Positions 10,002 through 13,958 of a DNA stretch of 36,202 nt are shown here, one piece after another (positions within the stretch are counted from its first letter, which is position 1; each line of letters starts with the position of its first letter). A program made the translations under genes and the position numbers. The notes below the pieces were generated by a model. The model was not told the DNA's origin and ran no database searches. It saw nothing but the letters and a program-made list of their open reading frames with translations. The DNA comes from Cellulomonas sp. (GTDB lineage Bacteria; Actinomycetota; Actinomycetes; Actinomycetales; Cellulomonadaceae): contig JAPSIR010000008.1 in NCBI GenBank assembly GCA_031178625.1, positions 1-36,202 of the forward strand, written 5' to 3'.

Positions 10002-10367
10002 TCAGCGGCGCGGGCCGCGGCGGGCGGTGGGCGCCAGGCGGGACGCCGGCGCGGGGTCCACGGTCGGGGTCGCGGTCGGGTCGGCCGTCGGCCCGGGGCT
10101 CGCGGTGGCGGCGGGCTCGGTCGGCGTCGGCGTCGCCGTCTCCGTCACCGTCGGCGCGGGCGTCGCCCACACGCCGGTCGTCACCGTCGCCGTGACGTCG
10201 TCCGTGTCGGTGAGCAGCGCGCTCGTGCTGCCGAGCGACGGCGTGACCGCCGCGCAGGCGCCGACGACGAGCACCGCCGCGAGGCGCAGCCACGTGCCCG
10301 CGGCCGCGCGAGGGCCGCGCCCCGGGCGGCTCCCCGGCGCGCAGGGGTCAGTCGAGGAGGAGCGCAT
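10002..10367 (-). CDS. Small secreted protein with SipW-type (alternate) signal and Thr/Pro-rich tail
   Basis: TWLRLAAVLVVGACAAVTPSLGSTSALLTDTDDVTATVTTGVWATPAPTVTETATPTPTEPAATASPGPTADPT...; start overlaps the end of the signal peptidase gene. Confidence 0.7.
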   Translation of the reverse strand: MRSSSTDPCAPGSRPGRGPRAAAGTWLRLAAVLVVGACAAVTPSLGSTSALLTDTDDVTATVTTGVWATPAPTVTETATPTPTEPAATASPGPTADPTATPTVDPAPASRLAPTARRGPRR

Positions 10368-11061
10368 CGACCCTCCTGTCGTCCGCGGTGCGCTGCCCGG
10401 TCCGGCCCCGGCGGCGTCGCGCGTCGAGCACGGACAGCACCTCCAGGGTGGCCAGGGCGAGCAGGGGCGGCACCAGCATGACGGCCCGGCCCGTCGACGA
10501 CGTCGCCCACACGAGCGTGTCGCCCCACCCGTGGTGCACGCGCAGCAGCACGCCGCGGACGCGCTCGACCGGGGTCGCGTTCGGGTCCGGCTCAGGGTTC
10601 GCGTCGCCCTGCGTGCGCATGTACTCCTGCCGCACCGGCTGACCCGACTCGTCGAGCAGCGGCTCCATGCGGCCCGTGCCGTCGTCCTGCATCGCGTCGA
10701 GGCTGTGCAGCGAGACGATCCGGTGCGTCACGAGGCCGGACCCGCCCACGGGCTGGAACGTGACGATGAGGTTCGGCTTCAGCTCGGAGGGATCGGTCAC
10801 GGACCGCAGCACGACCACGTCGCCCTCGACGAACCGCGGCGCCATCGAGCCCGACGTCACGACGAGCAGCCGCTCGCCCTGCAGCTGGTACCAGAGCGGC
10901 ACCAGCAGGGCCGCCGCGTACGCGAGCACGCCCGTCGCGGCGACGGCCCACAGCAGCACGGACACCGTGCGCCGCACGCGCCGGCCCGGGGTGGCGGGCG
11001 CGTCGGGGCGCGGGGCCCGTCGTTCGACGAAGGGCTCCGCGTGGACCGGCTGCGTGCTCAT
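10348..11061 (-). CDS. Signal peptidase I, SipW/ER-type
   Basis: GERLLVVTSGSMAPRFVEGDVVVLRSV...LIVTFQPVGGSGLVTHRIVSLHSLDA...; SGSM-P serine motif and THRI in place of a Lys-containing box; flanking TM helices. Confidence 0.9.
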   Translation of the reverse strand: MSTQPVHAEPFVERRAPRPDAPATPGRRVRRTVSVLLWAVAATGVLAYAAALLVPLWYQLQGERLLVVTSGSMAPRFVEGDVVVLRSVTDPSELKPNLIVTFQPVGGSGLVTHRIVSLHSLDAMQDDGTGRMEPLLDESGQPVRQEYMRTQGDANPEPDPNATPVERVRGVLLRVHHGWGDTLVWATSSTGRAVMLVPPLLALATLEVLSVLDARRRRGRTGQRTADDRRVDALLLD

Positions 11062-11078
11062 CACCCCGGGTGGACGGG

Positions 11079-11750
11079 TCAGGGGTTGTTGACGGTCTGC
11101 TCGGAGTCGAGGCGGAACGTCAGGTCGGCGGCGGTGTTCTGGTACTCGTTGCCGGCCGTGGCGGCCATGTCGACGCGGACGCAGAGCGTCTCGGTGCCGT
11201 TGACGCCGGCGAGCACGCGGTCGCCGGTCTGCGGGCCCGTGGCCGGGTCGCCGACGATCGGCGTGGGCGCGTCGGCGTTCGTCGGCAGGCCGAACTCCGC
11301 GGTCTCGGTCGCGGTGTCGCCCAGCACGGTGCCGGTGCAGTCGGCGGTGGCGAACACACGCGCCCGCAGCTGCTGGCGCAGGTCGCCGCTGCCCGTGTCG
11401 CCCCGGGCGGGCACACCCTCGGCGACGGCGGCGCTCAGGCTCACGGCGTAGCGCAGCTCGAGCGAGCCGGTGTTGTTGACCTGCACGGGCGCGATCACGG
11501 TGCCGCCGGGTGCGAGGCCCTCGACCGGCACGTCGAACGTCGCGCCCTGCGCGCCCAGCACGAGGGTGCCGGTGCTGATCCGGCCCGTGAGGCTGTCCTG
11601 GTCGGTGAACAGGGCCGACGTCGTCAGCGACGCCACGCCGACGGCGGCCAGCGCCAGGATGGAGCCGGTGGCCCACGCGCGGCGACGACGCGCGGCGTCC
11701 TCGCGCGACGGCGCCGGGTCGATCATCTCCTCGAGCAGCTCGTCCATCAT
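11079..11750 (-). CDS. SipW-dependent-type signal peptide-containing protein (TasA/CalY-like)
   Basis: WATGSILALAAVGVASLTTSALFTDQDSLTGRISTGTLVLGAQGATFDVPVEGLAPGGTVIAPVQVNNTGSLELRYAVSLSAA; adjacent to signal peptidase. Confidence 0.8.
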   Translation of the reverse strand: MMDELLEEMIDPAPSREDAARRRRAWATGSILALAAVGVASLTTSALFTDQDSLTGRISTGTLVLGAQGATFDVPVEGLAPGGTVIAPVQVNNTGSLELRYAVSLSAAVAEGVPARGDTGSGDLRQQLRARVFATADCTGTVLGDTATETAEFGLPTNADAPTPIVGDPATGPQTGDRVLAGVNGTETLCVRVDMAATAGNEYQNTAADLTFRLDSEQTVNNP

Positions 11751-11867: not shown

Positions 11868-13958
11868 TCACCCTATGGGGTGAAGCGACGGGTGGTCGCC
11901 GCGGGCCGTGTCACCCGGTGGGCGCACCTCCTCGGGCGGCGCGGGCCGGGCCCAGAGGTAGCCCTGCGCCTGGTCGACGCCGAGCCGCTGGAGCGTGCGC
12001 GCCGTGCCCTCGTCCTCGACGCCCTCCGCGACGACGCGCAGGCCGAACGAGTGCGCCAGGTCGACCATGGCCTGCACCACGACCTCCGAGCCCTCGCGCC
12101 CGCCGTCGCCGAGGTCGGCGACGAAGACGCGGTCGATCTTCAGCTCGTCGACGGGCAGGTCGCGCAGCTGGGAGATCGACGTGGTGCCGGTGCCGAAGTC
12201 GTCGATCGCGACCCGCACGCCCAGCTCGCCGAGGCGCTCGAGCACCGGCACGACGCGCGAGCGGTCGGCGACCAGCGCCGTCTCCGTGATCTCGACCTCG
12301 AGCAGCGCCGGTCGCACGCGGTGGCGCGCGAGCAGCTCCACGATCGTGTCGACCACGGCGGGGTCGGCGACGTCGTGCGCCGAGAGGTTGACGGCCACCG
12401 GCACCGCCCTGCCGTCGGCGGACCACTGCGCGAGCTGGCGCACGGCCGAGTCGAGCGCGAACGACGTGAGCCGGTGGATGAGGCCCGACTGCTCGGCGAG
12501 CGGCACGAACGTGCCCGGCCCGACGAGCCCGCGCGTCGGGTGCCGCCACCGCATGAGCGCCTCGAGCCCGACCGTCCGCTGCGACGCGAGCTCGATCTTC
12601 GGCTGGTAGTGCATCTCGAGCTGCGCGACGGGGGGCACGCCGAGGGCGTCGCCCGGGCCGCCGCGCGCGTCCCCGGCGGCACGCGCCGACTCGTGCTCCT
12701 CCAGCGCCGCGTGCAGCTCGCCCATCAGCACCAGGCGCGCCGGTGACGAGTCGTCGGCGTCCGGCGAGTAGACCGACACGCCCGACCGCTGGTGCTTGGC
12801 CGCGTACATCGCGATGTCGGCGGTCCGCATGAGCGACGACGGGTCGTCCGCGTGGTCGGGAAGGCACGCGACGCCGACCGACGTGTCGACGTGCAGCGCC
12901 AGGTCACCCAGCTCGAACGGCGCGGCGAACAGCCCGCGCACCCGCCGGGCGAGCCGCTCCGCGTTCGCGACGGACCGCACGTCGGGCAGCAGGATCGCGA
13001 ACTCGTCGCCGCCGAGCCGGGCCACGACGTCGTCGTCCCGCAGCGCGTTGCGCAGGCGTGCCGCGACCAGCTCGAGCAGCGCGTCGCCGTGGTCGTGCCC
13101 GAGCGTGTCGTTGATGTCCTTGAACCGGTCGATGTCCAGCAGGATCAGGCCGACGCGCGACCCGTCCTGGCCCGACTCCTGCACGGCCCGCTGCATCTGC
13201 TCGCTGAGCAGGCGGCGGTTGGGCAGGCCGGTGAGGGAGTCGAGCATCGCCAGGCGCGCGTTCTCGAGCGCGGCCGTGCGCAGCCGGCGGGACGTGGAGT
13301 GCACGATCCGGAACAGCAGCAGCCACAGCACGACGAGGCTGCCCGCGACCACGAGCGCCACGGTGCGCACCGTGCTCGTCAGCGTCTCCTGCGTCGCGGT
13401 GTGGTCGAGCATGACCTCGGCGGCGCCGACGACCTCCTCCGCGTCGACGCCCGTCACCGTCCCGCGGATGTCCGCCGCGTGCACCGGCACGTAGACGTCG
13501 AGCACCGTCTGCTTCTCGGTGGTCGGGGTCGCGTCCTCGACGCCGCGCACGTCCGGCTGCACCGCCGCGACGGGCTCGCCCCCGAGCAGCACGTGGTCGA
13601 AGCGCTCGGAGTGCGGCAGGCCCGTGCCCGCGTCGCGCGAGGAGTACATGAGCCGGCCGTCCTGGCTCCACAGCCGCAGCTCGACGAGCGCGGAGGAGAA
13701 CCCGGCCGTCGCGGCGGAGACCGCAGCCTGGTCCTGCTCCGGCAGGACGCCCGTGACGTACGCGTCCGCGGGCGTCGCGGCCGACGCGTACGCGGCCACG
13801 GTGGCGGCCAGGCTCGTGCCGTCCCGGACCGCCTGCGACCGCATCTGCGACGACGCGACGAGGACCAGGGCGGCCCCGACCACGGCCATGCCGATGAGGC
13901 TCACGACCGCGAACCGGCGCGTGAGGCTCGAACGACGGCGACTGGCGGGCACGTGCAC
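11868..13958 (-). CDS. Membrane diguanylate cyclase/phosphodiesterase (GGDEF-EAL) with N-terminal extracytoplasmic sensor
   Basis: Two TM segments flank a sensor region; GGDEF in VARLGGDEFAILLPDV; EAL in TVGLEALMRWRHPTRG; DDFGTGTTSISQL. Start (GTG) uncertain. Confidence 0.93.
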   Translation of the reverse strand: MHVPASRRRSSLTRRFAVVSLIGMAVVGAALVLVASSQMRSQAVRDGTSLAATVAAYASAATPADAYVTGVLPEQDQAAVSAATAGFSSALVELRLWSQDGRLMYSSRDAGTGLPHSERFDHVLLGGEPVAAVQPDVRGVEDATPTTEKQTVLDVYVPVHAADIRGTVTGVDAEEVVGAAEVMLDHTATQETLTSTVRTVALVVAGSLVVLWLLLFRIVHSTSRRLRTAALENARLAMLDSLTGLPNRRLLSEQMQRAVQESGQDGSRVGLILLDIDRFKDINDTLGHDHGDALLELVAARLRNALRDDDVVARLGGDEFAILLPDVRSVANAERLARRVRGLFAAPFELGDLALHVDTSVGVACLPDHADDPSSLMRTADIAMYAAKHQRSGVSVYSPDADDSSPARLVLMGELHAALEEHESARAAGDARGGPGDALGVPPVAQLEMHYQPKIELASQRTVGLEALMRWRHPTRGLVGPGTFVPLAEQSGLIHRLTSFALDSAVRQLAQWSADGRAVPVAVNLSAHDVADPAVVDTIVELLARHRVRPALLEVEITETALVADRSRVVPVLERLGELGVRVAIDDFGTGTTSISQLRDLPVDELKIDRVFVADLGDGGREGSEVVVQAMVDLAHSFGLRVVAEGVEDEGTARTLQRLGVDQAQGYLWARPAPPEEVRPPGDTARGDHPSLHPIG

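Follow-up and report, generated by a model that had tools for sequence, protein, structure and literature searches.

The window analysed here is the whole stretch of 36,202 nucleotides of Cellulomonas DNA. Three genes lie back to back on its minus strand, with the coordinates that the first-pass annotation had given them, and a gene for a c-di-GMP enzyme precedes them. The features are the following:

11868..13952, minus strand: GGDEF-EAL (c-di-GMP) gene, directly upstream, 117 bp before calY; its GTG start is uncertain
11079..11750, minus strand: calY/tasA-like fibre subunit gene, 223 aa (Pfam Peptidase_M73, TasA profile and fold matches)
11574..11612, minus strand: predicted CalY donor strand, following the A46/L47 site, LFTDQDSLTGRIS (aligned with TasA)
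10348..11061, minus strand: sipW-like gene for an ER-type signal peptidase, 237 aa (TIGR02228)
10002..10367, minus strand: third (small) gene, 121 aa, with a SipW-type signal, a donor-strand-like segment and a Pro/Thr/Ala-rich tail
10176..10217, minus strand: predicted donor strand of the third protein, following the A50/L51 site, LLTDTDDVTATVTT (position profile of 56 genomes, TasA/TapA PSSM comparison)

The upstream gene matches Pfam EAL (1e-68) and GGDEF (6e-49), and both motifs are intact. The small gene had been said to overlap the peptidase gene by 20 nt, and this is the case, the small-gene start being at 10367 and the end of the peptidase stop codon at 10348. An AGGAGG ribosome-binding sequence is found upstream of the small gene. 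A scan for promoters and terminators found none.

Conservation of the locus

The peptidase was present in 57 of 61 Cellulomonas genomes at E<=0.001, although two of the 57 only had weak paralogues. We read 56 Cellulomonas loci in detail and the order calY-sipW-small gene was kept in all of them. The small gene overlapped sipW by 20 nt throughout, save in L089 and L090, where the overlap was 17 nt. In both CalY and the small protein, the Ala preceding the predicted cleavage site was invariant. Because order, overlap and this Ala are kept across the 56 loci, the grouping of the three genes is not due to chance. The trio is nearly universal in Cellulomonas; C. massiliensis (L191), a named strain, is without the small gene. 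In 56/56 Cellulomonas loci, and also in 6 of 7 sister-genus loci, calY is preceded at a distance of 107-324 bp by a GGDEF-EAL gene, therefore the true unit is a short operon adjacent to a c-di-GMP gene. In the C. cellasea/timonensis group (L113, L114, L168, L170, L174) calY and sipW are separated by about 200-530 bp, whereas they are nearly in contact elsewhere.

Among 199 genomes of the phylum, a search for this peptidase subfamily found it in the window genome only, and therefore it is lineage-restricted. Three Chloroflexi MAGs (L192, L193, L196) have ER-type peptidase genes overlapping genes whose products are longer but carry similar signals (TSALLTDTPSVGAN, STTALFNDIAPETGN), and an arrangement of this kind may therefore predate the Actinomycetota. 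In the literature, which we covered in part, we found no published link between Cellulomonas and SipW fibres and no experiment.

The putative fibre subunit and its peptidase

CalY matched Pfam Peptidase_M73 (PF12389) at 4e-8 with 33.7 bits, above the cut-off of 22.5, and the best PDB sequence match of its profile was the TasA fibre 8AUR (2.2e-8); 5OF1 was also matched. Its AlphaFold model (pLDDT 82) had the same TasA fibre as top fold match in the PDB, with probability 1.00, E 2.8e-6 and TM-scores of 0.44/0.42, followed mostly by chaperone-usher (donor-strand) pilins. This agrees with the jelly-roll/beta-sandwich fold of TasA. The modest TM-scores may be expected, since the model is a monomer with a free N-terminus. 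The low confidence of the strand segment in this monomer model (pLDDT<50 at residues 44-47 and 54-62) also speaks for the donor-strand reading. The predicted donor strand of CalY aligns with the TasA segment FNDIKSKDATF, and F48 is invariant. More generally, the proline-box residues F29, P62 and Q232 of TasA, which help to form its subunit interface (PMC10151520), have F48, P81 and Q218 as their aligned counterparts in CalY, and these are invariant in 48 CalY proteins. The CalY proteins also share two invariant cysteines, C138 and C190, which points to a disulfide.

CalY reached only 17.6 bits against the TasA equivalog NF046066, below its curated cut-off of 450, and therefore CalY is a relative of TasA and not TasA itself. 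The search with the TasA/CalY and alternate-signal models, which the first-pass annotation had put forward as a check, gave PF12389 above its cut-off for CalY. Against TIGR04088 (cut-off 19) CalY scored 19.1 bits when the genome was searched and 17.8 bits by hmmscan, and the small protein only 10.0 bits. An actinobacterial counterpart of SipW/TasA, as proposed from the sequence, finds support in the families, in the best PDB sequence match, in the best fold match and in the genus-wide conservation.

The name of the Pfam family, camelysin metallo-endopeptidase, might suggest that CalY stays unpolymerised at the cell surface, for example as a camelysin-type protease, and that the small protein is an unrelated secreted peptide. 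We consider this hardly credible, as the conserved residues of CalY are those of the TasA subunit interface. Protease activity itself was rejected, because the window CalY does not contain any histidine and hence has no HExxH.

The peptidase scored 59.8 bits against the ER-type signal peptidase model TIGR02228 (cut-off 51.85) and 45 bits against the Bacillus SipW equivalog NF046067, missing the curated cut-off of 190. The SGSM serine motif and the THR in the place of the usual Lys, both pointed out before, were confirmed: Ser72 and His113 are invariant in 19 relatives, and Asp153 and Asp159 likewise, so that the Ser/His/Asp catalytic residues are present. CalY and the small protein had been described as "dedicated" substrates, and they can be called so only putatively, because the window genome has two more ER-type peptidase cassettes, whose substrates are different. 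Five TIGR04088 matches were found in this genome at E<=10, four of them adjoining ER-type peptidases. A second SipW-type cassette (L126:5531-8042, contig C12) consists of a substrate with TSAAWTDSAWF, then an ER-type peptidase, and also a second AAWTD protein and a protein whose C-terminus is a sortase-like tail (LATTGG-hydrophobic-Arg). Furthermore, one ORF (L079:3920-5266, contig C302) contains an ER-type signal peptidase-like part and an Ice_binding-like domain (PF11999, 7e-22), with the signal-like segment PAWARFSARTATTGNTF between the two, and has nearly full-length homologues in three other Cellulomonas genomes (L205-L207). This ORF might encode a peptidase and its own substrate in one chain.

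The small protein and its N-terminal strand

The motifs that CalY and the small protein had been said to share, SALFTDQDSLTGRISTG and SALLTDTDDVTATVTTG, are present. They lie directly after a conserved TSA, that is, in the same place as the mature N-termini of B. subtilis TasA and TapA, which start with AFNDI and AFHDI respectively (PMC10151520). In TasA, residues 28-38 are the donor strand, which is inserted into the next subunit (PMC9674648), and TapA has been proposed as the source of the first strand (PMC10151520). Judging from these alignments, the shared motif is a predicted SipW cleavage site plus an N-terminal donor strand of the TasA/TapA type, and thus of an already-known type.

The strands of the two proteins are alike, yet distinct, both by position and by PSSM. 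Counting from the predicted cleavage site, the small proteins of 56 genomes were hydrophobic at +2 in 98%, at +8 in 71%, at +10 in 61% and at +12 in 96% of cases, whereas CalY was hydrophobic in 100%, 30%, 0% and 79% respectively; the small protein of the window has an Ala at +10. The residues at the same four positions are F, F, V and L in TapA, whose sequence was checked against PDB 6QAY, and F, K, A and F in TasA. TapA was better described by the small-protein PSSM than by the CalY PSSM by 17.1 bits, and TasA by the CalY PSSM by 7.2 bits. TapA also has D60-F61 at +17/+18, where DF occurs in 11 small proteins and F at +18 in 19; from +19 on, F makes up only 0.4% of small-protein residues. 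The strand of the small protein therefore appears to resemble that of TapA more than that of TasA, and the CalY strand appears to resemble that of TasA. By their strands, then, CalY has the look of the repeating subunit and the small protein that of a starter.

The rest of the mature small protein is variable. Its length ranges from 16 to 112 residues with a median of 33, some of the shortest ones ending at contig ends, and its tail is composed of Pro, Ala and Thr at 25, 18 and 18%. No family matched it in the curated family searches. TapA/YqxM (TIGR04087) had no match in the window genome at E<=1, nor was it among the 25 families listed for 55 orthologues of the small protein; their scattered matches to other NCBIfam families look driven by low complexity and were rejected. 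The Ig domain with a disulfide of TapA is absent, as the mature protein is too short and only 1 of the 56 has a Cys.

Such a protein might be a mere SipW substrate, the motif being the recognition site of the peptidase and the Pro/Thr-rich tail the functional part, as a wall-spanning or glycosylated surface peptide, with no capping of a fibre. The cleavage site does lie within the motif, the Pro/Ala/Thr-rich tail is sometimes long and the sequence of the strand is weakly constrained. However, the tail is nearly absent in many species, in which complete proteins have a mature part of 19-22 residues, and therefore the strand is all that remains of the mature protein. Furthermore, the alternating hydrophobic residues at +8, +10 and +12 are unnecessary for cleavage, because CalY is mostly without them at +8 and always at +10. 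We regard this explanation as unlikely. The small protein looks instead, by its sequence, like more than a second substrate, namely a minimal TapA-like initiator. A B. subtilis strain secreting only TapA44-57, 14 residues, forms a proper biofilm (PMC10151520), so a short protein might suffice in principle. A TapA44-62 peptide (C58S/F61A) fell far short of the activity of whole TapA in vitro (PMC10151520), and therefore the tail or membrane retention may matter.

The pooled dN/dS was about 0.57 for the small-protein strand and 0.18 for the CalY strand. As the former evolves fast, it is mainly the hydrophobic pattern that is kept. Every part of the small gene had a dN/dS below 1, which indicates relaxed purifying selection only. 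Co-variation between the two strands beyond phylogeny was positive but weak (partial Mantel 0.17, control 0.10), too small to be relied upon. The fast strand, this weak co-variation, the missing TIGR04087 match, the weak TIGR04088 match, the Ala at +10 in the window copy, the low in vitro activity of the TapA44-62 peptide and the modest TM-scores all count against the initiator reading.

Lectin-like relatives and a model of fibre initiation

Beyond Cellulomonas proper, a protein of 254-400 residues, with a signal and strand similar to those of the small protein, occupies the same position in Actinotalea, Pengzhenrongella, C. aerilata, Nanopelagicales and other actinobacterial MAGs. Nine of ten scanned long relatives exceeded the cut-off of Pfam Laminin_G_3, the tenth being from the Chloroflexi. 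No Pfam match above the cut-off was obtained for L115 (the copy of C. aerilata), L117 or L119, yet they align with the other long relatives. The AlphaFold model of one LamG-type relative matched ConA-like jelly-roll folds of many proteins, among them neurotoxin receptor-binding domains, sialidases and a pentraxin, which we take as pointing to a lectin-like fold only and not to a relation with toxins. In the midpoint-rooted peptidase tree the short forms made up one clade (83/87), with the long forms outside, and all the more distant rows were long forms. The simplest reading is that the lectin domain was lost near the base of Cellulomonas.

The small gene might then be a decaying remnant of a LamG-domain protein, retained through its start overlap with sipW; its long version in relatives, its very variable tail length and its loss from C. 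massiliensis would all fit. Nevertheless, across so divergent a genus stops or frameshifts would be expected, whereas 56/56 loci are open, with the signal, the Ala and the strand pattern kept, and dN/dS is below 1 throughout the gene. Decay is thus a quite improbable explanation.

The reading that we favour, and hold to be probable, is that the small protein is a minimal TapA-like initiator of a TasA-type donor-strand fibre, derived from a lectin-tipped ancestor. The operon would make an extracellular fibre by donor-strand exchange, like tapA-sipW-tasA of B. subtilis. Sec would export CalY and the small protein, and the adjacent peptidase would cut both after the TSA motif, exposing the N-terminal strand. 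CalY would polymerise, the strand of one subunit entering the next, and the small protein would take the first position and start the fibre as a natural minimal TapA, because its strand is free and it offers no folded domain as an acceptor. Its probable origin is the loss of the laminin-G-like lectin domain still present in the same gene of relatives, where this domain would decorate the fibre end. The c-di-GMP enzyme may couple expression or assembly to biofilm signalling. We suggest more tentatively, and with some doubt, that the TasA-type fibres of Cellulomonas start from a naked donor-strand peptide, reduced from a donor-strand/lectin fusion that serves sister lineages as a tip adhesin.

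The closest known system, the B. subtilis operon, likewise has three adjacent genes for a camelysin-type subunit, an ER-type peptidase and an accessory protein with a matching N-terminal strand. Cellulomonas differs in the order (calY-sipW-small gene), in an accessory protein without the Ig domain and cysteines of TapA, in the fixed upstream GGDEF-EAL gene and in the invariant Cys pair of CalY. Bacillus cereus sipW-tasA/calY also forms camelysin fibres without TapA and has a separate accessory protein, CapP (BC1280). However, CapP has a 150-aa N-domain plus repeats and a mechanism reported to be different from that of TapA (PMC13082335), whereas the Cellulomonas accessory amounts to a short strand. 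Donor-strand exchange is also the principle of chaperone-usher pili with a FimH-type lectin tip adhesin, and in the sister genera a lectin-like domain is fused to a donor-strand-like segment, which would suit a tip subunit; nevertheless, fibres of the Cellulomonas type would have no usher or periplasmic chaperone and belong to a different subunit family, and their adhesion is presumed.

TapA has been reported to be non-conserved even within Bacillus (PMC10151520). The small protein suggests a simple natural starter peptide where a tapA gene is absent, and a genus-wide gene encoding little beyond the start strand offers a direct test of fibre initiation, in bacteria that degrade cellulose and for which attachment to surfaces may be important. 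The fixed c-di-GMP gene hints at a form of control other than that by SinR in Bacillus. As the lectin-fused relatives suggest, tip adhesins may be borne by donor-strand fibres of Gram-positive bacteria, like those of Gram-negative pili. If the naked-strand reading is true, fibre initiation would need only a strand without an acceptor, and tip adhesion would be a removable module.
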